DNA from: Longimicrobiales bacterium
Lineage (GTDB): Bacteria > Gemmatimonadota > Gemmatimonadetes > Longimicrobiales > Gaopeijiaceae
Assembly: GCA_951813395.1 (NCBI GenBank)
Contig: OX638356.1
Span: 3,484,501 to 3,548,500, forward strand
Length of the DNA stretch: 64,000 bases
Direction: 5' to 3'
Within the stretch, counting starts at the first letter, position 1, and the number at the start of each line of letters is the position of its first letter. Below are positions 9,194 to 52,100 of the stretch, piece after piece. The notes under the pieces are model-generated. The model was not told the origin of the DNA. It saw only the letters and a list, made by a program, of their open reading frames with translations, and did no database searches. A program made the position numbers and the translations under genes.

Positions 9194-10174
9194 TTGACTC
9201 CCGAACACGCTGACTTCGGCCATTCACACGGGCCCGATGCGGTCCAGGATCGTTTCCAGGAGTCGCGGGCTGCAGGCAGACGCAGCCTTACGGCGGCCCT
9301 GGTACTCACCGCCGGATACATGATCGCCGAGGTCATCGGCGGGTTCTACGCAGGCAGTCTTGCCTTGCTCGCCCACGCCGGACATATGCTCACCGACGCA
9401 GTCTTCATCATACTTGCGCTCGTCACCATGCGGTTTTCCGGCCGGTCCACCGCGGAGCACACCTACGGTTTCCACCGGACGGAGGTCCTGGCCGCGCTGA
9501 TCAATGCGCTGACCCTGTGGGGAATCTCGGTGTGGGTGCTGCTCGAAGCCTACCGGCGCATTTTGGAGACGCCCCTGGTCGACGGCACTCTTCTCCTGAT
9601 CGTCGGCGCGATCGGCCTGGTCGTGAACATCACGTCGGTGTGGATACTGCACGGCGCGGCCCAGCGGAATCCAGACGTCGAGAGCACCTTCCAGCACATG
9701 ATCACCGACCTCATGGGTTCAGTGGCCGTGGTCGTCGCAGGCGTGCTGGTGTGGGCCTTTGACTGGCATGTTTCGGACCCGGTCGTCGCCGTCCTGATCG
9801 GCATCCTGATCCTGATGAGCACCTGGCGGCTGCTCTCCCGTGTGGTGGATGTGCTGCTGGAGGGTACGCCCGAACACATCGATCTGTACTCCCTCTGTCA
9901 CAAGATCGAGGAGCTCGATGGCGTGACCGTGATTCACGATGTCCACTGCTGGACCCTGGCCCCCGGATACGTCGCATTCACCGCGCACCTGCTGGTGGAA
10001 AGCGGCTATGAGACCGAAGGAGGGCACGAGTCCCTGCTTGACCGGATTCGCGATATCGCCTACGACGAATTCGAGGTCCAGCACATCACGGTGCAACTGG
10101 AGACGAGCGCGGTTCGCTGCCATGAGGCCCACCATGTGGACCACCTGCTGGCAACGGCGCGGACACCGGTCTGA
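9194..10174 (+). CDS. czcD: CzcD-like cation diffusion facilitator (CDF) metal exporter
   Basis: This inner-membrane antiporter moves Zn2+, Cd2+ or Co2+ from cytoplasm to periplasm in exchange for protons. It is 326 aa with six predicted transmembrane helices and a C-terminal cytoplasmic domain. The metal site residues are in place: His64 and Asp68 in HMLTD of helix 2, and His168 and Asp172 in HMITD of helix 5. The N-terminus carries a short His run (HADFGHSH). The C-terminal domain contains HDVHCWTL, as in CzcD/ZitB. The start is a TTG with only a weak upstream purine stretch. It is divergent from the czcCBA-like operon and probably shares its regulation. Confidence 0.92.
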   Translation: MTPEHADFGHSHGPDAVQDRFQESRAAGRRSLTAALVLTAGYMIAEVIGGFYAGSLALLAHAGHMLTDAVFIILALVTMRFSGRSTAEHTYGFHRTEVLAALINALTLWGISVWVLLEAYRRILETPLVDGTLLLIVGAIGLVVNITSVWILHGAAQRNPDVESTFQHMITDLMGSVAVVVAGVLVWAFDWHVSDPVVAVLIGILILMSTWRLLSRVVDVLLEGTPEHIDLYSLCHKIEELDGVTVIHDVHCWTLAPGYVAFTAHLLVESGYETEGGHESLLDRIRDIAYDEFEVQHITVQLETSAVRCHEAHHVDHLLATARTPV

Positions 10175-10230
10175 GCCGGCGCGGAAGCATCGGCGGCCGA
10201 AGTACGCCGGGGTTCTTTTCCGCGTACTGC

Positions 10231-10461
10231 CTACACACCCCTCCGATATGCCCAGATGAGAACGGCGATGCCGATCACGTACGCGGTGAGCAGGTAGGTG
10301 AAGAGGAAGGGCATCCCCAGGATCCAGGGCTCGACGCGGTTGACCAGGCCGTGCACGATGGGTGGCTGGGCCAGCGCCATGGCCACGAGGAACGCGATCG
10401 ACGCGATCCAGCCGTTGCGGGTGCGGGGCAGGTAGTGGGAGCGCGGGATCTTCATGGGCAT
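10231..10461 (-). CDS. DUF3311-like small membrane protein
   Basis: This 76-aa protein has two hydrophobic helices and the motif NRVEPWILGMPFLFTYLL, which resembles DUF3311 proteins. Those are normally encoded just before a sodium:solute symporter. Here no symporter follows: the downstream neighbour is the convergent CDF gene, 56 bases away. It may be an orphan left by rearrangement. Two adjacent Met codons (10461 and 10455) could serve as start and neither has a clear ribosome-binding site. The family call is from the motif only. Confidence 0.55.
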   Translation of the reverse strand: MPMKIPRSHYLPRTRNGWIASIAFLVAMALAQPPIVHGLVNRVEPWILGMPFLFTYLLTAYVIGIAVLIWAYRRGV

Positions 10462-10499
10462 GTGGCCGGAGCGGGTGGATGCGCGGGTGATGCTTTGAA

Positions 10500-10690
10500 C
10501 AATTGGTAGTGCGCCGGCGGCGCAACCCGAATCTCCCGGCTCACCTCGTCGATGTCCTCGCCCCGCACAGCCGCAAGACCACCTCGGCCTTCCGTTGCGT
10601 GCTCCGCCGCTTCGGCAGGCCCTCCGGCCGGCCGCGGCTATTCGCCAAATCCAGGGTTGCTAAACTACTGTCCAGAGAGATCGGGGGCAC
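10500..10690 (-). pseudogene. frameshifted transposase OrfA remnant (helix-turn-helix)
   Basis: Reading the minus strand from about 10,640 gives GRPEGLPKRRSTQRKAEVVL followed by RL. The frame then slips by one base (near 10,575) into RGEDIDEVSREIRVAPP. Joined, these give a helix-turn-helix like that of OrfA proteins of IS3-type elements (pattern KAEVVLRLLRGED...VSRE). A single missing base in CTG(C)TG explains the break. Nothing of the rest of the transposase is visible, so this is a dead fragment. It lies next to the 118-bp repeat and may belong to the same lost element. Confidence 0.45.
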
Positions 10691-10733
10691 TATACCCGCT
10701 CCCGAAGTCTTGAGCCCTTACAAGAAAGCGCAT

Positions 10734-10851
10734 AGAAATTCCCGCAATCTGGCGAGATTTCCCCGCTATTTCAGCACGGCGGGAGCAACTCCAGTTTGGG
10801 AGCAAGAAACGCAGATCGTGCAGTCCTGATTGAACTTACGTGATTTCTTGC
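10734..10851. repeat. 118-bp dispersed repeat, copy 1 (unoccupied IS1111 target)
   Basis: This segment aligns over 118 bases with 45759-45876, including the well-conserved block CGCAGATCGTGC. In the other copy the homology is interrupted exactly here by an IS1111-group element and resumes after it: ...TTGC|CGTGATTC here versus ...CTGC|IS|CGTGATTC there. The repeat has no open frame I recognise. It borders both the transposase scrap and the truncated toxin gene, so it may be the end of a lost mobile element. Confidence 0.6.
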
Positions 10852-11063
10852 CGTGATTCCGACCCTTGTTGCTCCGCCGCTGAGGCCGTGCCCCGCCTAC
10901 CCAGCTTGATATACCGGTGCAGGATTTCCTGAAGAACTTCCGTCGACGTCACCAGCCGAAGGCTCTGCCGGCGCGCACCATGAAAGAACCCGCGCGCCTC
11001 GTCCCGGAGAGGATGTTCCGACCCCACGAAGTACATGAAGACGTTCGTGTCGACGAAAACCAA
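10836..11063 (-). pseudogene. truncated PIN-domain (VapC-type) toxin
   Basis: This is an N-terminal part of a PIN ribonuclease toxin. It starts at a TTG (LVFVDTNVFMYFVGSEHPLR) with the first catalytic Asp in VDTN. It continues through LVTSTEVLQEILHRYIKLG, including the conserved Glu. A PIN toxin of this type needs about 130 residues, but after some 58 codons the sequence changes into the edge of the 118-bp repeat and ends at residue 75. The later acidic residues are missing, so the enzyme should be dead. It sits directly after the antitoxin remnant. Confidence 0.7.
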
Positions 11064-11338
11064 TCGACCTCCAGGTCCGGATATCGCGTCTCCACGAGTA
11101 TCCGCTTGACCTCCGACCAATCCGGCTCCCGGGACCCGGGCGGATGCCGTGCATCGCAACGCGCGGCGAAGTCGCGCAGTTCCTCGATGGTGAACAGCCG
11201 GGGACGCGCCGACGCCAGCTTCTCCTCCGCCGCCTCGCGCATCCACCGTCCCAGCGATTTCCCCTCGCGCTCCGCCTGCGCCTAGTACCGGGCCTTTGCG
11301 GTCTCCTTCACGACAAAATGAATGCGCGACATGGCCAT
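11064..11338 (-). pseudogene. VapB-like antitoxin with premature amber stop
   Basis: From ATG 11338 the frame reads MAMSRIHFVVKETAKARY and then TAG at codon 19. It resumes in the same frame as AQAEREGKSLGRWMREAAEE and later TIEELRDFAARCDARH. The whole reads as one antitoxin of about 90 aa whose codon 19 has become a stop. The end also lacks its own stop before the toxin start and runs on into the toxin region. With the toxin also truncated, the pair is a decayed toxin-antitoxin module. Re-initiation at the internal ATG (MREAAEE) is possible but would lose the N-terminal DNA-binding part. Confidence 0.7.
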
Positions 11339-11344
11339 TCCTGT

Positions 11345-11390
11345 GCAAACAAATGGTGCATGGTGCATTATAGTGGTACAACCACGTCGG
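11345..11390 (-). promoter_or_regulatory. promoter and operator-like palindrome of the decayed toxin-antitoxin pair
   Basis: On the minus strand a perfect TATAAT (11372-11367) lies about 30 bases upstream of the antitoxin ATG. Immediately upstream of this -10 is the palindrome GTGGT-ACA-ACCAC (11373-11385). A direct repeat ATGGTGCATGGTGC follows downstream. This is the usual layout of an autoregulated toxin-antitoxin promoter. The control region looks better preserved than the genes. Confidence 0.5.
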
Positions 11391-11405
11391 GCCGTCAACC
11401 CCGGG

Positions 11406-13865
11406 CTAGCGCGCCAGCTCCAGCCTCCCGTCCACGAACACCCAGCTCGGCAAGACCCGGTAGTCGAACGGATGCCCCTCGAGGACTACGAAGTCGGCGT
11501 CCTTGCCCACCTCGATGCTGCCGATGCGGTCGGCCATGTCGAGCATCTCCGCGGCGTTCAGCGTCGCCATCTTCAGGGCTTCGACCTCGGGCACGCCGTT
11601 GCGGAACGCCCACGCCGAGTTGAGGATCGGTTCCCCGCCCAGCCGCCCGATCGGCGAGGCCCGGCGCGATGCGCCCGGGCCGTAGAACGCCACCTTCACG
11701 CCCGCGCGGGTGAGGATCGCGGGGCCCTCGACGCTCCAGCCCTCGCCGCCCCCGCGGATGTCCGATGCGTAGCTCCCGGAGTTGCCCAGAATGACGCCGG
11801 CGCCGAGGGCGGCGAGTTCGTCCGCAAAGCGGTGGGCCTCGACCCCACCGGTCAGGACGAGCCGCAGGTCGAAGAGGCGCGCCAGCGAGATCGCCGACCT
11901 GATCTCCGGGACCCGGTCGGCGTGGACGACCGCGGGAACTTCACCCAGCAGCACAGGCAGGAGCGCTTCCATGCGCGGGTTGTAGTCAGGGTCGGTGGGG
12001 CCGATGCCGGGGCTTCGGGCGTCGGCGTAGGCGCGCGCCGAGTCAAGGGTCAGCATGACCACCGTGGGTTCCGACAGGTCCCAGCGCTCGCCCGCCTCGA
12101 ACGTCATCGCGAACACCATGCTCGCCGGCTCCCGCCGCACCATCTTTTCGAAATCCATGCCGGGCGTCTTGATCACGACCCCGCTGCCGCCGACCATGTT
12201 GGCGGTGCCCGGCGTCACATGGATCGCGGTCACGCCGATGTTCGTGTTGACCCGGTACGAGGGGAACCAGGGGTCGACCGCATAGAGCGCGTTCATCTCG
12301 GGCACGACGGGTCCGGTCAGTTCGTCGTTCTGCACCTGCCACTTCAGGTCGCCGATCCAGTCGTTGGGAAAGGCGCGCGCGATGATCGTCCCGGGCATGA
12401 CGACGCGGCCGCCGACGTCCATCGCGGGCATGCCGGCAGGCGGGTCGGCCCCGGCCCGTACCACGGTGAACCGGCCGTCTTCGACCACCAGGGTCGCGTT
12501 CTCGAGCGCACCGTCGCTGATGGTGAAGACGTGGGCACCGGTGATCGCGAAGCTCTCGTCGTCCGGCCCGATCGCTCCCGTCACCGGCCCGAACGGCCCC
12601 ACCGCGCGAGGTTCGTCCGGCTGAAGCAAACGGGCGCGTTCATACTCGATTCGGCCGTCCACAATCACCCGCTCGATCCGGTCGGCCGTCAGGTCCAGGA
12701 AGTGGCCGTCGAGGAGCACCAGGTCGGCGTCCTTGCCTGCCTCTATGCTGCCCACGCGGTGCTGCAGTCCCATCGCGCGGGCGCCGTTGATGGTCATGAC
12801 CTCCAGCGCCTGCCGGTCGGTCAGGCCGTGACGCGCCAGGAAGGCCCCGTATTCGCGGAAGTCCTTGAAGTGCTGCCGTGACATGTCGGTCTGGATACTG
12901 GCGTTGACACCCGCATCGAGCAGCACCTCGAGCAGGTTGATGGGCTCGGGATCGTTGAAGTACTGCACGATCATCATCGGGCCGATGACCGGAATCACCT
13001 TGGTCCCGGCAAGGAGTTCCGCGAGCGGAAACACCTCTTCCGCGTGGGCGAGAGCCAGCCGGTCGACGAAGCCGTACTTGCGGGCCAGCCGCAGCACCAT
13101 CATGACCTCGCTGGGGTAGTGCGAGTGCGCGTGCACCATGACGTCGCCCCGGATCACCGCCGCGAAGGCTTCCAGCCGCTCGTCGGGCTCGGGCGCCGGG
13201 CCCAGGCCGGACGCGTGGGCCTCCTGCCGATCCAGGTATTGCCTCGCCCGCCGGAAATGGTCGTCCGCGGTGGCGTACCACCCCATGACCGTCTGCGGCG
13301 TCTCGCCCGGACGCAGCTTGACGAGCGGGCGCACCGCCATCTTGAGGTCGACGTAGGGCTTGAGGATCATGTCGGGCCCGGGCTCGCGCTTCATCTTGAG
13401 CGCCACCGACTGCCCGCTCGAAATGACGCCGCTGCCCGAGCGCGTGATCACCGAAGTCACCCCGCCGGAAAGCGCGACCTGGATCGTGGGGTCGTTCAGG
13501 TCGAGGTGCTCGACCGCCTTCCACTCGGCGGTGACGGGCTCATCGGGCCGCGACCAGCTCATTGGGTCCAGCGCGAAATGCGCGTGCGCGTCGATCATTC
13601 CCGGGATCACCACTTCCGCCTCGTAGACGCGCGCGTCGGGGGGCGCGGCGACCGACGTCCCCACTGCGGCAATGACCCCGTCCCGCAGCAGGATCTCGCC
13701 CGGCGTGAGGGTGCCGTTGGTGACAGTGTGGATTGTCCGGGCGCGGATCAGAATCGGCGCGTCCTGCCCGGTTGCCGGCGCCGGTGCGCCTGCAAGAAGG
13801 GTCGCGATGGCCAGCGCGGCGAGGCGACCGGCTCCCGGCCACCGGACCACGCATCCGCGGCTCAC
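11406..13865 (-). CDS. exported double-domain amidohydrolase
   Basis: The 819-aa protein has a signal peptide (LAALAIATLLAGAPAPATGQ) and two amidohydrolase-like halves in tandem. The first (about residues 35-420) has the metal-site motif GMIDAHAHF, His residues in VHAHSHYP and LAHAEE, and a late Asp in NASIQTD, followed by the family end GSIEAGKDADLVLLDGHFL. The second (about 435-819) has the same architecture and ending (GSIEVGKDADFVVLEGHPFD). Where the HxH motif should be it reads VMPGTIIARAFPND, so its metal site looks lost. The GTG start overlaps the stop of the upstream propeller gene by four bases (GTGA). Substrate is unknown; relatives include prolidase- and imidazolonepropionase-like enzymes. 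Confidence 0.8.
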   Translation of the reverse strand: MSRGCVVRWPGAGRLAALAIATLLAGAPAPATGQDAPILIRARTIHTVTNGTLTPGEILLRDGVIAAVGTSVAAPPDARVYEAEVVIPGMIDAHAHFALDPMSWSRPDEPVTAEWKAVEHLDLNDPTIQVALSGGVTSVITRSGSGVISSGQSVALKMKREPGPDMILKPYVDLKMAVRPLVKLRPGETPQTVMGWYATADDHFRRARQYLDRQEAHASGLGPAPEPDERLEAFAAVIRGDVMVHAHSHYPSEVMMVLRLARKYGFVDRLALAHAEEVFPLAELLAGTKVIPVIGPMMIVQYFNDPEPINLLEVLLDAGVNASIQTDMSRQHFKDFREYGAFLARHGLTDRQALEVMTINGARAMGLQHRVGSIEAGKDADLVLLDGHFLDLTADRIERVIVDGRIEYERARLLQPDEPRAVGPFGPVTGAIGPDDESFAITGAHVFTISDGALENATLVVEDGRFTVVRAGADPPAGMPAMDVGGRVVMPGTIIARAFPNDWIGDLKWQVQNDELTGPVVPEMNALYAVDPWFPSYRVNTNIGVTAIHVTPGTANMVGGSGVVIKTPGMDFEKMVRREPASMVFAMTFEAGERWDLSEPTVVMLTLDSARAYADARSPGIGPTDPDYNPRMEALLPVLLGEVPAVVHADRVPEIRSAISLARLFDLRLVLTGGVEAHRFADELAALGAGVILGNSGSYASDIRGGGEGWSVEGPAILTRAGVKVAFYGPGASRRASPIGRLGGEPILNSAWAFRNGVPEVEALKMATLNAAEMLDMADRIGSIEVGKDADFVVLEGHPFDYRVLPSWVFVDGRLELAR

Positions 13866-41500: not shown

Positions 41501-41753
41501 CGGTGGCTTCGGCGGCTTCAGCGGACCCGCGGCGGGCGCCTTCGTCTGGCAGACGATCGAACGCGCGACCAGTCCCCCCACGGCCGATCAACTCTGGCAG
41601 ATCGACCGCTCGTGGGAAGAGCTTCCCGCCCTCGTCGAGCAACTGAACGAGTTGGTCACCGAGCGCATGCCCGCGCTCAACGCGAAGGTCTACGCGGAGG
41701 GGCTCCGACCGGAGGTGGCCGAAGCGGTGGAGATGCCGAGAAGGGGACGGTAG
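38586..41753 (+). CDS. large exported BNR/Asp-box repeat protein (VPS10/sialidase-like propeller)
   Basis: The 1,055-aa protein has a GTG start with GGAGA upstream and a signal peptide (ALAALLLGSLSPDPADAQ). The first 750 residues form propellers with many Asp-boxes of the form S-x-D-x-G-x-T-W: VYRSTDAGRTWTHL, VYRTTDGGETWERV, IHRTTDGGDTWTEL, VYRSTDRGGTWEHL, LFRSTDLGQSWEEI, YASSDFGETWERI. After this come a FlgD/Ig-like beta domain (GGEAGLNEVIWDLRL, GRYTVALAAGDATLEASV) and a C-terminal coiled-coil part with a Gly run (EEVGGGGGFGGF). Enzymatic activity is not evident; it may be a scaffold or glycan/peptide-binding protein. It is divergent from the epimerase gene, starts 166 bases apart. Confidence 0.85.
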   Translation: MKHRRPFPTRALSAAGALAALLLGSLSPDPADAQDAPADPTRQATAALKFRTIGPTIMGGRVADLAVVEDDPRTFYVAVATGGVWKTENAGITFTHVFRDEATASVGDVTVAPSNPNVVWVGTGEPNNRQSSPWGNGVYRSTDAGRTWTHLGLEDTHHIARIQVHPRDPDVAYVAAVGRLWGPNPERGVYRTTDGGETWERVLFINDDTGATELVMDPGDPRTLFAATYQRRRRAWGFNGGGPGSGIHRTTDGGDTWTELTEGLPEGDKGRIGLDIYRRDGNLIYALVEADARVPGQGFGGGGGSDAKNGVYRSTDRGGTWEHLSTTNNRPMYYSQIRIDPNDPERLYLGGSSLFRSSDGGRNFTPDAAAGVHLDHHALWIDPADSDHLILAGDGGVSVSWDRSDNWYQLRNLPIGQFYEIGVDMRDPYHVCGGLQDNGSWCAPSDTWSNQGIRTRDWYNVGSGDGFFTVMHPTNPDLMLAESQGGNLMRVDLGTGERARIRPLPRPTAEEDERSLRWNWDTPMLLSAHDDQVVYAGSNILFRSTDLGQSWEEISGDLTYAIDRDTLTLMGVAGSEPQMSRNDGQSSYGNLTAIAESPLDFSVLYTGSDDGRLHVTRDAGASWTDITGNVPELPPFTYVTRLVASRGAQGEVFAAFDGHRSDDFAPYVYASSDFGETWERITDGLPATSMNALAQHPRAHNLLFAGSEVGVHFSIDRGATWHDLMNGLPTVPVDDIVVHPRDNDLVVGTHGLGIWIMDDIAPLEHLTSEVMASAAHLYPVRRATSYNLYTPQGWTPGIYAAPNPPAGARIRYHRDADGDSVTVTIRDGGETVRELKGGGEAGLNEVIWDLRLAAEGGDGEAVDPGPRVLPGRYTVALAAGDATLEASVEVRLDPRAEISRSDLMARHAAMMDSYRLSGMVSDARERMQGMQRQLGQIDDRVAAAAEAPEALTDEIEAFREDLEALQEEVGGGGGFGGFSGPAAGAFVWQTIERATSPPTADQLWQIDRSWEELPALVEQLNELVTERMPALNAKVYAEGLRPEVAEAVEMPRRGR

Positions 41754-42032
41754 ACGGCGAGCGGATCGGGACTGGGCGAGGGAGGGGGCCTCCCGTTTGA
41801 AACGCGGGCGCGGCCCGGGCAGAGGGCTGGAGGGGGGCTGGAGCGCGTCGATGGAGCGCCGGGCGGGCGGGCGGCGGTCAAGTTGGCGGGCGGGCGGGTG
41901 TTGGAGGGGTCGGCAGCGGGCGATGGAGCGGGTTGGCGGCGGGCGACGGAGCGGGTTGGCGGCGGGCGGGTCTGACAGCGGGCGGGCAGAGAGCGGGTGG
42001 CCGGTTGAGCCCGTCAGGCGGCTGGCCAATAG

Positions 42033-42080
42033 GGGCGCCCATTCGAGCATGCGGGTGTCCCGGGATTTGCCGCGGAAACG
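42033..42080 (+). repeat. dispersed repeat B, copy 1
   Basis: The core reads GTGTCCCGGGATTTGCCGCG, preceded by GCCCATTCGAGCATGC. Two other copies are at 42242-42291 (same strand) and 48908-48955 (opposite strand). The strong conservation of the core with variable flanks indicates a short mobile or recombinogenic repeat, REP-like in size. Confidence 0.6.
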
Positions 42081-42241
42081 TGGGGGTTGGGCGAGGCTGG
42101 CGGGTTGCGGGCGAATCCGCAGCGGGCGGGCCAGCAGCGGGCGGCGCGCCCAGCGGCGAGCGGGCCAACAGCTGGGTGGGGCTGGTTGCGGGTGGGGCTG
42201 ACGGCACGCGGGCATGGCAGCGGGTTTTGGACTGGCAGCGG

Positions 42242-42291
42242 GGCGGGCGCCCATACAAGCATGCCGGTGTCCCGGGATTTGCCGCGGAACC
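42242..42291 (+). repeat. dispersed repeat B, copy 2
   Basis: GCGCCCATACAAGCATGCC is followed by the same core GTGTCCCGGGATTTGCCGCG as in the copy 209 bases upstream. The two copies are separated by G-rich low-complexity DNA. Confidence 0.6.
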
Positions 42292-42299
42292 TCCATGGC

Positions 42300-42516
42300 C
42301 CTTCTGGCCACCCCATAGTCTGGAAACTAAGCTGGAGTCTGGGGACAGAGGTCGTAAGCGTTTCTGGTGCATTGAAAGCCCGACGCGGAACCTGACCTGG
42401 GCGTTCCGAGGGACCCCGTAGTGCTGACCGGCCCGAGCGGCCGCAATCGCGTATAGGAAATTCGACAACCATGAACGCCCTCCCCGATCCACTGGAGCCC
42501 GTGAAAGGAGGCGGGA
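42300..42516 (+). other. left end of the IS110-like element; possible bridge-RNA region
   Basis: In IS110-group elements the non-coding left end, before the recombinase gene, encodes the bridge RNA that specifies donor and target sites. The 200 bases before the chimeric gene have the position and size for that, and end with a strong ribosome-binding site (AAAGGAGG). I cannot fold it or fix its outer border by eye. Because the downstream gene lacks its C-terminal half, any RNA here is probably a relic. Confidence 0.3.
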
Positions 42517-43626
42517 ATGGATGTCATGATCGAACGGTGCGCGGGCCTCGACGTGCACAAGAAGACCGTGGTGGCGTGCGTTCGTACGCCGGGCAGGGAG
42601 GTGGCCGGCCGGCACAAGGCTGTCCGCACGTTCGCGACGACGCTGGCGGGACTGGAGGCGCTCCGGGAGTGGCTTCGGGGCAACGGCGTGACCCATGTGG
42701 CGATGGAGTCGACGGGCGTGTACTGGAGGCCGGTCTACGTCGTGCTTGAGGACGACTTCGAGCTGTTGCTCGTCAACGCCCGCCACATCAAGCACGTTCC
42801 GGGGAGGAAGACGGATGTCCGTGATTGCGAGTGGGTCGCGCGGCTGCTGGAGTGCGGCCTGCTCAGAGGGAGCTTCGTTCCGCCGCCGGAGATCCGCGAT
42901 CTGCGAGACCTGACCCGTCTGCGGAAGTCGCTGATCGGCGAGCGGAGCCGCCAGATCAACCGGGTGGCGAAGACGCTCGAGATGGCCAACATCAAGCTGG
43001 GCTCGGTCGTGACGGACATCATGGGGAAGACGGGGCGGGGGATCCTGGATGCTCTGGCGGCAGGCGTCGAAGCCCCGGAAGCGCTCGCCCGGCTGGCACA
43101 GGGGTCGCTGAAGAAGAAGCGCAAGGAGCTGGCCGAAGCTACCGCCGGCCGGATGACGGAACACTACCGCTTCATGCTGGGCCACCGAGCCCGGCTCTTC
43201 GGCGACGTCGTCGCCAAGATCTCCATCGTTGCCTTCGATGCCCTCGTCGCCCAGGTGATGGCCCGTGAACCCTACCGGTCCGCCGAGCGCGTCTTCTGGA
43301 TCGTCGATGGCGGCACGATCCATCGCGGCCAGCGCGCCGCCGACCGTCTCCAGGCACGGTTCGACAACCTCACCCTGGTGCATCTGCCCACGCACGCCAG
43401 CTGGATGAACCAGATCGAGATCTACTTCTCGATCCTCCAGCGCAAGGCACTCACCCCCGCCCACTTCTCTTCCCAGGACGCAGTCGCCGAGCGCATCCTC
43501 GACTTCCAGCAGCACTACCAACAAATCGCCTCGCCCTTCGAATGGAAGTTCACCCGCTGCGATCTCAACCGCCTCCTGGCCCGCTCGCCCACCCCCGCCC
43601 ATCCCTCACTCCGCGAAGCCGCATGA
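42517..43626 (+). CDS. chimeric transposase: IS110 N-terminal half fused to IS630 C-terminal part
   Basis: The 369-aa reading frame is uninterrupted and preceded by AAAGGAGG. Residues 1 to about 222 are an IS110 recombinase RuvC-like domain with its complete DEDD tetrad: Asp12 (AGLDVHKKTV), Glu64 (AMESTGVYW), Asp100 and Asp103 (GRKTDVRDCEWVA). The linker helices (LRDLTRLRKSLIGERSRQIN) follow. From about residue 226 (LFGDVVAKISIVAFDALVAQ) it is an IS630-type DDE transposase: WIVDGGTIHRGQRAADRLQA (Asp264), HASWMNQIEIYFSILQRKAL (Glu301), and the family tail FEWKFTRCDLNRLLAR. The IS110 C-terminal serine domain and the IS630 N-terminal half with its first Asp are absent. Neither activity is expected, yet the fusion is seamless and in frame. 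Confidence 0.85.
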   Translation: MDVMIERCAGLDVHKKTVVACVRTPGREVAGRHKAVRTFATTLAGLEALREWLRGNGVTHVAMESTGVYWRPVYVVLEDDFELLLVNARHIKHVPGRKTDVRDCEWVARLLECGLLRGSFVPPPEIRDLRDLTRLRKSLIGERSRQINRVAKTLEMANIKLGSVVTDIMGKTGRGILDALAAGVEAPEALARLAQGSLKKKRKELAEATAGRMTEHYRFMLGHRARLFGDVVAKISIVAFDALVAQVMAREPYRSAERVFWIVDGGTIHRGQRAADRLQARFDNLTLVHLPTHASWMNQIEIYFSILQRKALTPAHFSSQDAVAERILDFQQHYQQIASPFEWKFTRCDLNRLLARSPTPAHPSLREAA

Positions 43627-43630
43627 GAAT

Positions 43631-43659
43631 ACGTCACCGAACTTCTGAACCGGTGTACC
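43631..43659 (-). repeat. likely right end of an IS630-type element
   Basis: Just after the chimeric gene lies TCACCGAACTTCTGAACCGG and then TGTACC, followed by TA. IS630-type elements insert at TA and carry terminal repeats there; read inward it is GGTACACCGGTTCAGAAG. The matching left end is missing, as expected if the IS110 segment replaced it. The TA plus the first G of this end also form the TAG stop of the minus-strand neighbour. Confidence 0.45.
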
Positions 43660-45505
43660 TAGTCGGCATTGCGACGGGAACGAAACTCCTCCAGGGCCCG
43701 AGCGCGGATCTCCTCGAACCTATGCTTCAGATAGGGATTCGGCCCAAGGGCGGCGGGCTCGTACCGATCAATGAGCCAATTGCCAAGGGACTCCTCGCGG
43801 TACGAGCGGTCTTCCAGCCGGGCCATCAAGATGTCATGCAGGCGGATCCCAGCCGCGAGGAGTGTCTCCAGCGTCTCCACGTCTCCCACATCTGCCCATT
43901 GGACGGGCTTAGCCTTCGGACTCTGAAGCATCACTCGCCGCCGCGTCCGTTGCTCGACGAGCCCGTACACCATGAAGTCGTTGGGCATGGTCTCCAACGT
44001 AACGACCAACGGCAGGTAGCTCTCGATACGTGACGGATCGACACCCTTCTCCGCGAGATGTCCTTCCTCGATGAGCCGAATCGTACCGGCAAACTGTTCA
44101 GCGGAATCACCGATGATGTCGTCGATCTTGCCGGACAGCGCTCCGATGTCGCCGTCTCTCCAAACGGGAAGATGCAACAGCGTTGCCTTGGCCTCGATCA
44201 GCACCACCGAGCCCTCGTAGACGATCACTGCGTCGCATTTCTTCGAGCCCGGGAGCGCAGGGTTGTCCAGGAATTCCGGCCCAAGGTATCGGCCTGATCC
44301 CCTCGGAAAGACACGACGAAGCAATCTGTCGATGTAGTCCTCGAAAACAGGTCCCATGTAGCCGAGGAACCTCCCGCTCTCTCTGCGGTCTTGGAGCCCC
44401 GTCAGGAAAATGTGAAACAAGCCTCGGGTCATCTTCCGGTGGAGGGAAGCGACCGACGGGCAATACGCTTTACCGTCATGAACGACGACAGGTGTGTCTC
44501 CCAACGGTAGGGGATCGAAGACGCGTAGATCGTCCACCCCACAACCACGACTCATCAGTTTCTGGCGGAGTACGTCAGCCCGCTCGGAGAAAAGGGCGAA
44601 GACTGCCCTTTCCTCATCGGAACGCAGATTGAGTGCCTCAAGAAAGGTGTCGACCGTCAGAAGCACCTTCGGGTGGTCGGTCTCTGTATTCGCAAGAGCA
44701 CCGAACATCGCCACGCTGGCTAGGGCGGGTGCGACATGGGTGATTCGCTCAAACAGCGCCAGCAGGTCGACGTAGCCGGCCTTGCTGCGTAGGTGCTGAC
44801 GGTCAGTTAGGTACAGGTCATGCGCGCGAGCGATGGCATGTTTGAAATTGCCGCCGTCGTGGAACAGCCGATTCGGCACGACATACCTGACCCATCGCAG
44901 AAGGTCGGCTCGTTCACGGATGCCTTGGGGCAACTCGTGGCTTCTCGTGTGCGTGGCGAGCAAATCGTTGACCATTAGCAGGGCCTCGCCGAACGCTTGG
45001 AGAGTAGCCGGGCCGCTTGCGGAGGCTGGAGGTACTTCGAGAAGTGCGATCTTGGCCGCGGTCACAACCTGAAGTTCGTGGAACACCTTGACAATCGGTG
45101 GAGCACCGAACTCTGAATCTGCGACCCTTGCGCGCCAAGCCTCGATATCGTTTTCGAGTTGGCCGGGGTCGTCAAACACACGGGAGATGAGCTCGCGCTG
45201 GGGCTTGATAGCGTCGTGATCCCCAGGCATCGAGATCCTCCAACTGATCGCGCCGAGGGTCGCGAGAACCATTTCGAGCCCGTAAGGCCGAAACCTTGCC
45301 ACGACATCATCATAGGTTGGAGCTGACCCGTGCAGGTCGGACCAAGATACGGAACTTGGGAGTTGTCCATAACGCTTGGTGTAAGATCGGAAGTCTGTTG
45401 GCCGTGACCCAGAGAATTGCGCAAGGGCAGGAAGAGGCCGCTTGCAGGGGAGCGATAGAAGGCGTAGTCGGGCTTGGGGAGCGGATCCCACGGGTCGTTG
45501 GTCAT
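43659..45505 (-). pseudogene. unrecognised protein with PD-(D/E)XK-like motif; apparent frameshift near the N-terminus
   Basis: I do not recognise the family. The main frame covers about 580 residues. Its C-terminal third has GSKKCDAVIVYEGSVVLIEAKAT, a good D-x(n)-ExK nuclease core (cut here: Asp in KKCDAVIVY, Glu and Lys in IEAKAT). The N-terminus seems to begin in another frame at ATG 45505 (MTNDPWDPLPKPDYAFYRSP, then LFLPLRNSLG) and to switch at a GGG run near 45410 into SRPTDFRSYTKRYGQ; one extra G would join them. If real, the gene is frameshifted; if not, translation starts inside. Its last codons touch the IS630-like end. Codon use is less GC-biased than neighbours, suggesting transfer. 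A role in DNA defence is a guess from the nuclease motif and the mobile setting. Confidence 0.6.
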
Positions 45506-45758
45506 GCGCGTCGTACGATCCGGTTAGACTGAAGGACTGCTGGTCGCGGCAGATGGGAGTAAAAGGTCGAGAACTCCGCGTCGTGAGGCAATCTACTGGG
45601 CAGCGGGAACGACAGCGGTGCGGCATCTGTCTCCCGAGTCAGTGTTCGGTCGGGCCTACGCGGAGGACGCCGCTGCGGAATGCTTGCGTAGTGCGCCGAT
45701 TTCAGCGACTTGGATCGGACGGCTGGATCGCTGGGCCACTTGGGCACAGATGGCGTGG

Positions 45759-45876
45759 AGGAGTCCCGCCATTCTAATCCGGTTTTCCCGCTTTCGCGGC
45801 ACGGTCCAGCAAGATCCAGTAGCACGACAGAAAGCGCAGATCGTGCGGCCCTGTAAGTAGTTAGACGATCTTCTGC
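45759..45876. repeat. 118-bp dispersed repeat, copy 2 (occupied by IS1111 element)
   Basis: This copy matches 10734-10851 over its full 118 bases and stops exactly where the IS1111-group element begins. The homology resumes on the far side at 47285 (CGTGATTC). It is the target site of the element. No coding capacity is evident. Confidence 0.6.
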
Positions 45877-45968
45877 CGATGGAGTGGACGCCCCCTCCCG
45901 GCGGCATCGCAATGTGCCAAGATGGTACTGAAGCGATTAGTCGACCATCTGAGGGAGGAGAGATCCAC

Positions 45969-46991
45969 ATGGAAGAGGTTAGCATCATCGGGATCGATCT
46001 GGCAAAGCGCAGCTTTCAGGTACACGGGGCGAGGGCGGACGGGTCGGTGGCGTACCGCAGAAAGCTGAGCCGGGGGAAGCTGCTGGGCTTTCTCGCCTCG
46101 CAACCGGGGTGTACGGTAGCGATGGAGGCGTGCGCCAGCGCCCACTACTGGGGCCGGGAGATCACATCGCTCGGCCACGAGGTGAGGCTGGTTCCCCCAA
46201 TCTACGTAAAGCCCTTTGTCAAGCGGCAGAAAAATGACGCTGCGGACGCGGAGGCGATCACGGAAGCGGCGCGGCGTCCGACCATGCACTTCGTGGCGGT
46301 CAAGTCAGAAGCCCAGCAGGCGCAGGGGATGCTCTTTCACACGCGTGACCTGCTGGTGCGCCAGCGCACGCAGACGATCAACGCGCTTCGGGGTCACCTG
46401 GCCGAGTACGGCGTGGTCGCTCCGCAGGGCAGAGCCCGGATCGGGGACTTGGCCGGAGTGCTGGAAGATGTGGACTCCGGCCTGCCGGGGGCGGTCGCCG
46501 AGCTGGGCCGGCTGCTGCTCGGGCGGATCGACGAGCTCAACGACAAGATCGATGGACTCGACCGGAAGATCCGGACGAGCGCGCGGGAGAACGAAGAGAC
46601 GGCGCGCCTGATGACGATCCCGGGAGTCGGGCCGGTCACCGCGATGGCACTGCAGGCCTTCGCACCGCCCATGGAGAGCTTCCGGTGCGGACGCGACTTC
46701 TCGGCCTGGCTCGGCCTCGTGCCGCGGCAGCACACGACCGGCGGCAAGCCGAGGCTGGGCAGGATATCGAAGATGGGCCAGCGAGACCTGAGACGCCTCC
46801 TGGTCATGGGAGCCATGACTGTTGTTCGGCACGCGAGCCGGCGCGGCGAGATCACGGATCGTTGGCTGGCCGGGATGTTGGCGCGCAAGCCGAAGATGGT
46901 GGTCGCGGTGGCGCTCGCCAACAGGACGGCGCGGAGGGTCTGGGCGCTGGCCACAAGGAAGGAGACCTATCAAGTTCGCACCGCCGCCTGA
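45969..46991 (+). CDS. IS1111-group (IS110 family) DEDD recombinase
   Basis: The 340-aa recombinase starts after GGGAGGAG. The RuvC-like domain carries Asp10 (IIGIDLAKRSFQVHG), Glu53 (VAMEACASAHYWGRE), Asp90 and Asp93 (QKNDAADAEAITEA). A coiled linker (LLLGRIDELNDKIDGLDRKI) leads to the Transposase_20 domain: MTIPGVGPVTAMALQAFA, then CGRDFSAWLGLVPRQHTTGG with the conserved Ser, and GRISKMGQRDLRRLLVMGA. All parts needed for RNA-guided recombination are present, in contrast to the chimera 2 kb upstream. The element should be competent to move. Confidence 0.93.
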   Translation: MEEVSIIGIDLAKRSFQVHGARADGSVAYRRKLSRGKLLGFLASQPGCTVAMEACASAHYWGREITSLGHEVRLVPPIYVKPFVKRQKNDAADAEAITEAARRPTMHFVAVKSEAQQAQGMLFHTRDLLVRQRTQTINALRGHLAEYGVVAPQGRARIGDLAGVLEDVDSGLPGAVAELGRLLLGRIDELNDKIDGLDRKIRTSARENEETARLMTIPGVGPVTAMALQAFAPPMESFRCGRDFSAWLGLVPRQHTTGGKPRLGRISKMGQRDLRRLLVMGAMTVVRHASRRGEITDRWLAGMLARKPKMVVAVALANRTARRVWALATRKETYQVRTAA

Positions 46992-47281
46992 GCGGTCGGC
47001 GAAAGGAGAGAAGCGAAAAGCAGAGAAGCTGACGGGAGAAGTGGGCAGTAGGACGGAAGGAACGGGGTAAGGGCAAACGGTCGACAAGACGGGGTCGGAA
47101 AAACCAGTGAATCACGGAGGGCCTATGAGCCCGGCCTGCCGATTTGGATCCGATCTCACGAACACCATACGGGCCCGCGGCCACAGATGGCTGCATCAAG
47201 AGGCCGGACATACGACAGTACCTGACCAGACTGCCACCAACTCGGTTCCGAAGACACGCTTGCCCACCCGGGGGCGTCCAC
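46992..47281 (+). ncRNA. candidate bridge RNA region of the IS1111 element
   Basis: In the IS1111 group the guide (bridge) RNA is encoded between the recombinase gene and the right end. Here 290 non-coding bases follow the stop codon: first a purine-rich run (GGCGAAAGGAGAGAAGCG), then mixed sequence including GGATCCGATCTCACGAACAC and CAAGAGGCCGGACATACGAC. The location and size agree with known cases. I could not fold it or match its loops to the target by eye, so the exact RNA limits are unknown. Confidence 0.45.
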
Positions 47282-47284
47282 ATA

Positions 47285-47634
47285 CGTGATTCTGGCCTCT
47301 GGCGATCCGCTGGGGGGAGGGCGGTCCGCCGGACCACCAACCCGCCGGCCGGTTCTCAAGCCAACGCCTGTCCCAAAACGCGGGAACGCAGTCCCATCCA
47401 GCTATGGACGGGTTCTGAAATGGCGGTTTCGGTGAGGTCCCGGACCTCTGCCACAATGGCCGCCAGGGGCCACAGGATGCCCCGGGCGGGGCGATCGGCG
47501 GTGCGGGACCCATTCGAAGCCGTCCCGAGGCGAGTTTTCGTGTCCTGGGCCATTACAGAGGGCCGAAAAACGGTAGTTAACTTATGGGGACAAATGCTAA
47601 CCCTTTGCCGGAACCCTACTTGGAGGATCAGAAC
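47285..47634. other. intergenic region upstream of the HNH gene
   Basis: The first 30 or so bases continue the target-site homology seen at 10852-10885. The remainder has no gene I would defend; a 65-codon minus-strand frame (47553-47356) lacks a ribosome-binding site. The last 60 bases are AT-richer (GGTAGTTAACTTATGGGG) and probably hold the promoter of the HNH gene. Confidence 0.4.
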
Positions 47635-48900
47635 ATGACCATCGCCCAACTTGGCGAGCGTATCGTCGAACTCGCCGCACGGATCAACATCGCCACCTAC
47701 GAGATGCTCACCCTCATCGCCGAGTTCGACCGTCGCGAGGGGTGGGCCGACGCCTTCAACTCCTGCGCCGAGTGGCTCGCCTGGAGCACCGGACGCACGC
47801 TCGGCACCTGCCGCGAGAACGTGCGGGTCGCCCACGCGCTACAGGACCTGCCCAAGACCTCGGCCGAGATGGAGGCCGGGCGGCTCTCCTACACCAAGGT
47901 GCGGGCGATCACCCGGGTGGCCACGAAGGCAACGGAAGGTGAACTGCTCGAACTGGCCGACAAGGTCTCCGCCGCCGAGCTCGAGCGGAGGGTGCGGGGA
48001 TGGCGGCACCTGTCGCGCGACGGCGAGTTGACGGCCGAGGAGGTGCGGCACCAGCGGCGCGCGTTCTCGGTGGTGATCGACGCCGACGGGACGTACGTGG
48101 TGCGCGGAAGGCTCGAGCCCGAGGCGGGGGCCGTGCTGATGCGGGCGATCGAGGCCGCAACGGACGCGCTGTACCGGGGCGAGGACCCCGCGGCGCGGCC
48201 GACGAGCCGCCAGCGCAGGGCCGATGCGGCGGGACTGGTGGCCGAGCGGGCGCTGGCGGCGGGGCTGAAGGCGGCGCACAGCGGGACGCGGGCCGAGCGG
48301 TACCAGGTGACGGTGCATGCCGAGATGGCCACGCTGGAGGAGCACGGCGAGGGTGGCCGGTCGGAGGTCGACGGGGTGCGGGTGAGCGCGGAGACGTCGC
48401 GGCGCATGGCGTGCGATGCGTCGCTGGTGCAAATGCTGCACCGGGAGGGGAAGGTAGTCAGCGTGGGGCGGAAGACGCGGACGATCCCGCCGCACCTCAG
48501 GCGCGCGCTCGAGGAGCGGGACCGGGGCTGCCGGTATCCGGGCTGCGGGGGCCGGTTCACGGAGGCGCATCATGTCAGGCACTGGGCCGACGGCGGGGAG
48601 ACGAGTCTGGCGAACACGGTGCTGCTCTGCCGGCGGCACCACCGGCTCGTGCACGAAGGGCGGGTGCGGATGGCGCTCGACGCGAAGGGTCAGGCGGTGT
48701 TCTTCACGCGCGGCGGCAAGATGCTGGGGAGCGTGCCGCCGCCGGTGAACGAGCCGAAGCTGACGCCGGCCCTGCCCCCCGCCCCACCGCTTCGGCCCGG
48801 GCAGATGTACAACGGCGCGGCCCGGCTCGCGGCCGGGGCGGTCCCGTGGGAGATCGAGGCCGCGGCGAGGGAGGCCGTCGAGGCAGGCGCCGGCGGGTGA
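47635..48900 (+). CDS. DUF222/HNH endonuclease-like protein (13E12 repeat family)
   Basis: The 421-aa protein starts at ATG 47635 with GGAGGA upstream; an earlier in-frame ATG at 47584 is less supported. The N-terminal DUF222 region is helical (EMLTLIAEFDRREGWADAFN, RAITRVATKATEGELLELAD). The C-terminal HNH domain is complete: RGCRYPGCGGRFTEAHHVRH, then WADGGETSLANTVLLCRRHH, RLVHEG, with Cys pairs and the HH...N...H catalytic/metal residues. Members are often multicopy and carried near mobile elements; the cellular role is not established. A Pro-rich tail (LTPALPPAPPLRPG) ends the protein. Downstream are the third copy of repeat B and a tandem repeat. Confidence 0.87.
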   Translation: MTIAQLGERIVELAARINIATYEMLTLIAEFDRREGWADAFNSCAEWLAWSTGRTLGTCRENVRVAHALQDLPKTSAEMEAGRLSYTKVRAITRVATKATEGELLELADKVSAAELERRVRGWRHLSRDGELTAEEVRHQRRAFSVVIDADGTYVVRGRLEPEAGAVLMRAIEAATDALYRGEDPAARPTSRQRRADAAGLVAERALAAGLKAAHSGTRAERYQVTVHAEMATLEEHGEGGRSEVDGVRVSAETSRRMACDASLVQMLHREGKVVSVGRKTRTIPPHLRRALEERDRGCRYPGCGGRFTEAHHVRHWADGGETSLANTVLLCRRHHRLVHEGRVRMALDAKGQAVFFTRGGKMLGSVPPPVNEPKLTPALPPAPPLRPGQMYNGAARLAAGAVPWEIEAAAREAVEAGAGG

Positions 48901-48907
48901 CGGCGCG

Positions 48908-48955
48908 CCCGCAGCCGCGCTTCCGCGGCAAATCCAGGGACACGGGCATGTCTCG
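48908..48955 (-). repeat. dispersed repeat B, copy 3 (inverted)
   Basis: On the minus strand this reads CCCATCGAGACATGCCCGTG followed by TCCCTGGATTTGCCGCGG, matching the copies at 42033 and 42242 with two or three changes. It lies 8 bases after the stop codon of the HNH gene. Confidence 0.6.
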
Positions 48956-48981
48956 ATGGGACAGGGCGGACAGCGAAGGCT

Positions 48982-49030
48982 CCGCTGTGGCCGACGGGGG
49001 CCGCTGTGGCCGACGGGGAACCGCTGTGGC
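48982..49030 (+). repeat. short tandem repeat, 2.5 copies
   Basis: CCGCTGTGGCCGACGGGG is repeated at 48982 and 49001, with a partial third copy CCGCTGTGGC at 49021. Unit length is 19-20 bases, in the intergenic space between the HNH gene and the TolB-amidohydrolase gene. Confidence 0.65.
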
Positions 49031-49139
49031 TCGTGCTCGCTCGGCGACACATGGACTCGCCGCACGGCCACGTGTCCCGCGCCCTTGCTCCGGCATCGGC
49101 CCGGCTCCAATCTCAAGGTCAGAGCCCCATCCGAGCGAC

Positions 49140-49160
49140 ACCCTGACGTTACGTCAGGGT
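49140..49160. promoter_or_regulatory. perfect 21-bp palindrome upstream of the TolB-amidohydrolase gene
   Basis: ACCCTGACGT-T-ACGTCAGGGT is perfectly symmetric around one T, 30 bases before the ATG of the next gene and close to its ribosome-binding site (GTGGAGGA). It may be a regulator operator around TGACGT half-sites. A transcription terminator is less likely because the stem has no T tail. Confidence 0.5.
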
Positions 49161-49189
49161 CGCCCCGCGACGTATCCGTGGAGGATTCC

Positions 49190-52100
49190 ATGCGCTGTTC
49201 CAGCCCCTCGGTCACCCATTCGGCCCGGCAGGCCGCCTTCTCGGTGGCCTCCAACCGTCTTCCCGTGTCGGCCCGTTTGCCCACACTCGCCGCCGCCGCG
49301 CTCCTCGCCGCCCCAATGTTCGCCGCCCCAATGTTCGCGGCCCCCCTCTCCGCGCAGGACACCGAGAACGGCGACGACTGGGACGTGACCCTCGCCCGGG
49401 GCGAGACCCGCGAGATCGATTTCACCACCGCAGAGGGAACGTGGATGTCGATGGACATCTCGCCCGACGGGAGCTGGATCCTGTTTGACCTGCTCGCTCA
49501 CGTCTACCGGGTTCCGGCGGACGGAGGGGGCGAGGCCGAACTTCTCACGGGCGGTACCGGTGTCGCCACGAACTACCACCCGCGCTACTCGCCCGACGGG
49601 TCGACGGTCGCGTTCATCAGCGACCGGGAGGGACAGAACAACCTGTGGCTGATGGACCCCGATGGCTCCAACCCGCGCCAGGTCTTCACCGACCTCGCGA
49701 CACGCGCCGTCGAGCCGGCCTGGTCCGCCGACGGCGAGTACATCTTCGTCAAGCTGCAGGACGTGGCCGCGGGTCGCGGCGCCACCGGGCGCAGCGGCAT
49801 CTGGATGTACCACAAGGACGGCGGCGACGGGATCCAGGTCGTCGGCGACCAGCCGCAGGCCGCGTGGCCCTCCCCGTCGGAAGACGGCCGGTATCTGTAC
49901 TTTCACGTCTACACGGGCCCGCCCGGACTGCAGGGCCGCGACGCGCTCGCGGGGCACTGGCAGGTGCGGCGCAAGGATCTGCGCACCGGCGAGATCGTCA
50001 ACATTACGGCCGGCACCGCCGCGCAGCAGGTGCGCGCCTCAAGCGGCAGCGCCTACGCGGCCGAGATCTCGCCCGACGGCCGCCACCTGGCCTTCGCCCG
50101 TCGGATCGCCGGCGGCACGATCTCGTACCGCGGCCACACGTTCGGCCCGCGCGCCGCGCTCTGGATCCGCGACCTCGAAACCGGGCGCGAACGCGTCGCG
50201 ATGGACCCCATCACCGTCGACAACGCCGAGGGGATCAAGACGATGCGCATCCTGCCCGGCTACAGCTGGAGCGCGGACGGGTCCCGCATTGTCATCACGC
50301 AGGGCGGCAAGATCCGGATGCTCGATGTCGCCAGCGGCGACGTGACCACCGTGCCGTTCACCGCCCGCATACAGCGTACCATCTCCGAGCTTGCCCGGGC
50401 CGACTTCCGCATCGACGACGGCCCCTTCGAGGCGAGGATGCTGCGCTGGTACGGCGCCTCGCGGGACGGCTCGCAAATCGCCTTCCAGTCCGTGGGCCGG
50501 GTCTGGATCGCTCCGGCTGACGGCGGCAACCCAACCCGCCTCACCAGCGGCGACGGCCCCCACGAATTCTCGCCTTCCTGGTCACCTGATGGACAGTGGA
50601 TCGCGTACACCACCTGGGACGGCGGCGAGGGCGGCCACGTCTGGAAGATCCCGGCCGGGGGCGGCACGCCCCAGCAACTCACCACTTCGCCGTCCGAGTA
50701 CGCCCACCCCGTGTGGGCCCCCGACGGCTCGGAGATCGTGGTGACGCGCGGCAGCGGCGCGGCGTCCCGCGCCAGGTCGGCTACGCAGAACCCGTACTGG
50801 GAGCTGTGGCGGGTCGCGGCCGACGGCGCCGGCGAAGAGCGCATCATGACCATCCCGGCCGGCGGCCCGGGCGGGTTGCTCGGCAACCGGCAGCAGATCA
50901 CGCGGGTGTCGTTCGGCCCGCAGGGGCGGATCCACTTCCCGGCGGGGCACACCTCGGGCGACGGCCCGGGCGCCACCGCCCTGATGTCGGTGCGCGGAGA
51001 CGGATCCGACCTGCAGGTGCACGCGACCATACCGTTTGGAGACGAGTTCGTGGTCTCACCGGAAGGGAACCGTGTGGCCTTCCAGGAGGGCGACAACGTT
51101 TTCTGGGCGCCACTGCCCCCGGGCGGGACGGGCGGCGATCCCGTTGCGCTCAGGAAGAGGGGCGCGCCGGTGCCGGTCACGCAGCTCACCACCGAGGGTG
51201 GCCTCTACCCCCGCTGGCTCGACAACGACCGGCTCGAATACGGGAGCGGCCAGAGCTTCTTCATCCACGACGCCGCGACGGGCGAAACCGACACCATGAC
51301 CATCCGGCTCAGCGTCGATCGCGTGATTCCGGAAGGCTCACTCGCCCTCACCAATGCACGCATCATCACCCTCGACAACCGCGCGGTCCACGACAACGCC
51401 ACCCTCGTCATCGAGGGCAGCCGGATCGCGTGCGTGGGCGACTGCGACACGTCGGGCGCCGACCGCACGATGGACATGACCGGCAAGACCATCGTACCCG
51501 GCTTCATCGACATGCACGCCCACCACTACCGCGAGCACAAGGGCCTCATCCCGAAGCGCGACTTCGAGTCGGCCATCTACCTCGCCTACGGGGTGACCGC
51601 CAACCTCGACAATTCGATGTGGTCGCAGAACGTGTTCGCCAGCGCCGAAATGATCCGCGCGGGTGCGGTCGTGGGCCCGAGAACCTACTCCACCGGCGAC
51701 CCCCTCTACCGCGGCGACGCCACCCGCCAGAACGACCTCTCCAGCTACGAGGTCGCCGAACAGAACATCAACCGCCTCGCATCGTGGGGCGCAACCGCGC
51801 TCAAGCAGTACCTGCAGCCGCGCCGCGACCAGCGCCAGTGGGTCTCGGACATCGCCCGCCGGAAGAACCTCATGGTCACGTCCGAGAACAACGATATTCC
51901 GTACACGATCGGGATGATGATGGACGGGCAGACCGCGTTCGAGCACCCCATGACGTACCTGCCGATGTACCGCGACCTGAGCACCTTCCTGGGCCAGGCC
52001 GAAGCAACGTACTCGCCGACCTTCGTCGTCGGCGGCATCGGTCCCTGGAACGAAGAATACTTCTTCGCCGAAGACGAGGTCTGGCTCGATCCGAAGCAGC

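Follow-up and report, generated by a model that had tools for sequence, protein, structure and literature searches.

The window, a 64,000-nucleotide stretch of the Longimicrobiales assembly GCA_951813395.1 (contig OX638356.1), carries a gene for a GAPS1-like nuclease on the minus strand, interrupted by a one-base frameshift and lying between insertion sequences (Table 1). An earlier note, made from the sequence alone, had described one IS-flanked gene with less GC-biased codon use at this position. Both of its ends were correct, although the strand was not given; the gene itself is real, but it does not form a single open frame, the frameshift having gone unseen. The departure in composition was borne out, with a GC content of 0.595 in the gene against 0.675 in the window and a GC3 of 0.70 in the nuclease frame, which lies under both the median (0.87) and the minimum (0.75) of 43 called genes. 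A simple scan of 43400-46000 returned no promoter-like site, which is weak evidence, and a terminator scan of the locus was likewise unproductive.

Table 1. Features of the nuclease locus (window positions) and defence-related genes beside its relatives
Feature	Position	Strand	Remarks
Insertion of ~5 kb	42290..47366		Contains the two IS remnants together with the nuclease gene; missing in relative G347
Chimeric ORF	42517..43626	plus	N-terminal part of IS110 transposase fused in frame to C-terminal part of IS630 transposase
IS630 remnant	43182..43662	plus	Right end at CTAG overlapping the nuclease stop codon
GAPS1-like nuclease gene, one-base frameshift	43659..45505	minus	Start codon 45505, stop codon 43659-43661
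Main protein part, second frame	43659..45352	minus	Helical region, then nuclease domain
PD-(D/E)XK-type active site	44094..44342	minus	Glu 44340-44342, Asp 44232-44234, Glu-x-Lys 44187-44195, Gln 44094-44096; in register with GAPS1 motifs
Approximate site of frame loss	45350..45365	minus	By DNA alignment with three intact relatives
N-terminal part, own frame (MTNDPW...)	45360..45505	minus	Matches N-termini of intact relatives
IS110-family transposase	45879..46991	plus	Right-hand IS flank
Complete type I R-M set			Beside L022
Fused BsuBI/PstI-type R-M gene			134 bases from L023
HsdR-like gene			Beside L052
Type IIG or DrmMI-like gene			Beside L055
DISARM-like DrmD and DrmMI			Beside L059

The left-hand neighbour, correctly recognised in the earlier note as an IS110/IS630 remnant, is a chimera whose IS110 part (about 42300-43183) recurs unchanged at four further places in the genome and whose IS630 part (43182 to about 43658) recurs at seven others with 99-100% identity; the element on the right, labelled IS1111 in the earlier note, encodes a transposase of the IS110 family. 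Together with the nuclease gene these remnants make up an IS-borne insertion, and in relative G347 about 60 bases separate the matches to its left and right flanks. Upstream of the nuclease gene, the sequence still matches that of the related locus L022 out to 45804. We rejected the nuclease gene as a component of an IS element, as the other copies of these elements in the genome come without a second copy of it. The insertion site falls between two conserved large genes, the spacing of which ranges from about 0.1 kb (G066) to 12 kb (G173) in relatives, and the contents of this variable site (window 41753-49316 and L110-L114) differ among them. A 45-base repeat at 42033-42077, 42245-42289 and 48918-48960, found also at the same site in G347 (L110), may be a dispersed repeat. 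A gene at 47584-48900 resembles an HNH-type nuclease by eye and has a similar counterpart at the same site in G347.

The span of the nuclease gene (1847 bases) is not a multiple of three, and its ATG lies in a different frame from the nuclease part. The frame opened by this ATG reads MTNDPWDPLPKPDYAFYRSPASGLFLP... and matches the start of the intact relatives at L022, L023 and L024, in which the frame is unbroken; by about 45350 these relatives match another frame, open through to the stop codon, and alignment of the DNA with all three loci reveals a one-base shift between the two parts. A longer ORF (43659-45626, 655 residues) begins with about 92 out-of-frame residues before the true protein is entered, and for that reason its ATG at 45626 was rejected as the native start. 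As the assembly reads, the full protein cannot be made in this genome from the native start, and at best an N-terminally shortened nuclease would arise from an internal codon, ATG 45272.

Among the four copies of the window's own clade (clade A, the window and the three relatives; about 560 codons), dN/dS was 0.20-0.25, a sign of purifying selection and of more conservation than expected by chance. The window branch (about 0.23, from about 0.05/0.22) did not differ from its sister (about 0.25, from about 0.07/0.28). Selection acted on the gene until recently, the break being either recent or an assembly error; broken where its relatives are intact, and with dN/dS still about 0.23, the window copy is probably a recent remnant. 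The earlier note had offered a single-gene system or a remnant; a remnant is most likely, and no constant partner gene was observed in the window's clade. On balance we consider it unlikely that the frameshift is an error of sequencing or assembly and that the gene is intact in the living organism, where it would encode a functional GAPS1-like nuclease some 615 residues long. Such an error would fit with selection that looks no weaker than in the intact sister, with two frame parts that still match relatives along their length and with a genome assembled as a single 4.09 Mb contig by an unstated method, but the break lies outside any homopolymer and most of the remaining gene calls in the window are long and unbroken. 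Furthermore, the codons adjoining the break differ from the HVWVSW stretch common to the three relatives, which suggests a real change.

The earlier note had placed this presumed remnant in an unknown family, a view overturned by a match of the long ORF to NCBIfam model NF047931 (antiphage_GapS1, E 4.3e-8), the only family match obtained across Pfam, NCBIfam and PADLOC, with none in Pfam or PADLOC. GAPS1, a bacterial protein known to act against phages, was reportedly described by Mahata et al. 2024. All six intact relatives tested also matched NF047931 (E 3.3e-14 to 4.5e-4, 19.2-52.6 bits) and matched no other defence family. The window protein scored 32.5 bits against a curated cut-off of 320, whilst six true GAPS1 proteins reached 393-510 bits. 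GAPS1 is mentioned in passages of PMC12908700 and PMC12774648, the latter naming a Klebsiella phage that carries it; this phage provided one of our six GAPS1 references, which were completed with five more proteins from related phage and plasmid sequences, 17 phage and 5 plasmid records having been found. In the Klebsiella phage, where the GAPS1 gene lies beside an integrase, a weak GapS4b match was also observed (L040:26579-27658, E 6.8e-6).

Profile alignment by hhalign of 12 intact Gemmatimonadota relatives, with the window protein excluded, against the six GAPS1 proteins matched 379 columns at a probability of 98.8 (E 1.1e-16) and brought the catalytic residues into register, establishing homology over the C-terminal two thirds. 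The aligned part covers GAPS1 positions 99-488 of 513 and includes part of the upstream helical region. Against one GAPS1 protein alone the probability was still 94.6, compared with 0.1-0.2 for three neighbour proteins, each aligned alone as controls. In a phylogenetic tree with several long branches, the six GAPS1 proteins formed one clade (100/99) with the window protein outside, grouping instead with plasmid-borne relatives from several phyla. Membership in GAPS1 proper was rejected on the cut-off and on this topology; by its sequence, the gene falls outside NCBI's definition of the GAPS1 subfamily and is placed in a sister group. The two share a C-terminal PD-(D/E)XK-type active site, a helical region upstream, the 379 alignable columns and a single-gene make-up, and GAPS1 itself is carried by phages and plasmids. 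They differ in that identity is 15%, the window protein and its relatives reach 19-53 bits where the cut-off is 320, proteins of the window family are about 100 residues longer, and their Glu-x-Lys is replaced in most GAPS1 proteins by Asp-x-Lys. Judged by its sequence, the gene would work like GAPS1.

The active-site pattern of PD-(D/E)XK nucleases (Glu, Asp, Glu/Asp-x-Lys) is present in the window protein, and all 13 rows of the alignment carry the Asp, Glu-x-Lys and Gln, the first Glu being found in 12. The D...IEAKA motif on which the earlier note had based a nuclease core is thus present in the gene, and the core gains further support from GapS1 homology with catalytic residues matching those of GAPS1. 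Structure prediction was of low confidence, AlphaFold2 with four sequences giving a pLDDT of 37 overall (best in residues 471-500, at 62-70) and a single-sequence model giving 35. Within the AlphaFold2 model, helices and strands of residues 374-503 nevertheless follow the order of the alpha-beta-beta-beta-alpha-beta core of PD-(D/E)XK nucleases, with core blocks at pLDDT 36-70. The earlier note had proposed a Foldseek comparison of this region, and the outcome was mixed: the best-ranked matches were mostly what we take to be PD-(D/E)XK nucleases, mainly archaeal Hjc, but the top match (2wiw, Hjc) had an E value of 0.07 and none fell under 0.05. A sequence search against solved structures returned nothing meaningful. 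The low-confidence model and the Foldseek ranking support a PD-(D/E)XK fold without proving it.

Matches to the window ORF were detected in 17 of 395 genomes of the phylum, of which 14, the window's own included, hold the gene or a large part of it; matches of only 37-41 residues in G042, G059 and G209 were excluded from all gene counts. Searching the same 395 genomes with the GapS1 model yielded 12 genomes, all at places of the window family and none above the cut-off. Each intact relative is a single protein, about 612-620 residues long. An isolated 41-residue stretch in two genomes of another family (L015:1501-1623 and L016:1501-1623) shares 78% identity with the window ORF (residues 203-243) and looks like a remnant. 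The record holding L023 is titled Gammaproteobacteria, whilst a genome search puts the genome in the window's own family.

Beyond the phylum, plasmid-borne GAPS1-like proteins occur in Nostoc, Kovacikia, Rhodococcus, Streptomyces, Pseudomonas and Pseudarthrobacter. These align with the window family (hhalign 99.8, E 2.9e-29, 426 columns) and likewise match GapS1 weakly (40-94 bits), but they are shorter (about 485-560 residues) and belong to other phyla; where annotated, they appear as 'hypothetical protein' or 'nuclease-related domain-containing protein'. Many of the wider relatives are plasmid-borne, some near recombinases. No relatives were found in phages, nor in plasmids when the window protein was the query, and searches of viral_contigs found one place and no new locus. 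PADLOC 2.0.0 (2023) misses the group: the eight proteins submitted to it, including one true GAPS1, gave no match.

Genes of R-M or DISARM-like systems lie beside 5 of 14 relative loci (from a scan of 10 of 117 called neighbour proteins, picked by eye and with no control regions; Table 1), and the Pseudarthrobacter plasmid relative adjoins a helicase and a methyltransferase. The earlier note had suggested a link to defence and a survey of genomic neighbours; the survey, uncontrolled as it is, supports such a link, as does GapS1 homology, and we regard a defence role for the group as likely. It is improbable that the nuclease serves mobile elements or DNA metabolism (in restriction, repair or transposition) instead of phage defence and was carried along by IS elements: the IS flanks of the window gene, the plasmids and recombinases of the wider relatives and the weak Foldseek similarity to Holliday-junction resolvases fit with it, but the flanking elements occur elsewhere in the genome without the gene, the flanking transposases have no match at L022-L024, and both the kinship with GAPS1 and the R-M or DISARM-like neighbours run counter to it.

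The earlier note had found no recognised partner gene, which is true of the window, but the sister clade (clade B) does possess a constant one. At all eight clade-B loci (L051-L057 and L061, of the same genus), a Schlafen-type gene of about 409 residues lies tail-to-tail with the nuclease gene on the opposite strand, the gene ends being 5-9 bases apart, as for example in L054 (8502-9731 beside 9738-11423). SLFN_AlbA_2 and HATPase_c_4 domains were identified in the one of eight copies scanned, an architecture like that of bacterial Schlafen proteins with AlbA_2 and a C-terminal histidine-kinase-type ATPase; the copy beside L051 contains one internal stop. Across 23 genomes of the genus, orthologues of the partner (76-100% identity) were found in exactly the eight clade-B genomes, always at the nuclease locus, and the search of the other 15 genomes returned no orthologue and nothing reaching E 1e-120 except 65% paralogues in G017 and G233. 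The flanking genes of clade B represent about five different settings, and the identities of the nuclease and Schlafen genes correlate (Mantel r 0.60, p 0.0006). This correlation is not strict: between L052 and L056 the nuclease genes are 91% identical but the Schlafen genes no more than 79%, which suggests that the partner has been exchanged while the pairing persisted.

A passage of PMC12839542, citing Taboada et al. 2025, places Schlafen-type proteins of the AlbA_2 and HATPase build near BREX and describes them as anti-phage, and Schlafen proteins are also treated in part of PMC6299218. Among the papers searched, none treated GAPS1 together with Schlafen, and further searches on GAPS1 listed no such pair. 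No Schlafen-type gene lies beside the window gene or at L022-L024, and we rejected it as a component of the window's system. Tentatively, and at a strength that falls a little short of probable, we suggest that in this genus the GAPS1-like nuclease and its Schlafen-type neighbour make up a defence module of two genes, arranged tail-to-tail, in which the Schlafen partner can be exchanged and the pairing persists; the window gene would be a broken, solo member of the clade sister to these loci.

Overall, we interpret the window gene with good confidence as a divergent defence nuclease of GAPS1-like type, in a copy that carries a frameshift and is probably dead. Its intact relatives would consist of a helical N-terminal half followed by a C-terminal PD-(D/E)XK domain with an active site of Glu, Asp, Glu-x-Lys and Gln. 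The N-terminal half may keep the nuclease idle until phage infection, upon which the enzyme would cleave DNA or RNA and so stop the phage or the cell. It is very doubtful that a shortened second-frame protein is still made from an internal start and works without its first ~78 residues, for although in-frame ATG codons at 45272 and 45230 and a stop-free nuclease part of low dN/dS would allow it, the first ~60 residues are retained in the three relatives (dN/dS 0.15-0.28 among them), and the negative promoter scan points, weakly, the same way.

Whilst the window copy alone carries little weight, its family brings defence proteins of the GAPS1 type into Gemmatimonadota, and its wider relatives take them further, onto plasmids of Cyanobacteriota, of Actinomycetota and of Pseudomonas, most of these members having no name. 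Should the pairing with Schlafen seen in the sister clade prove functional, it would offer a directly testable two-gene system.
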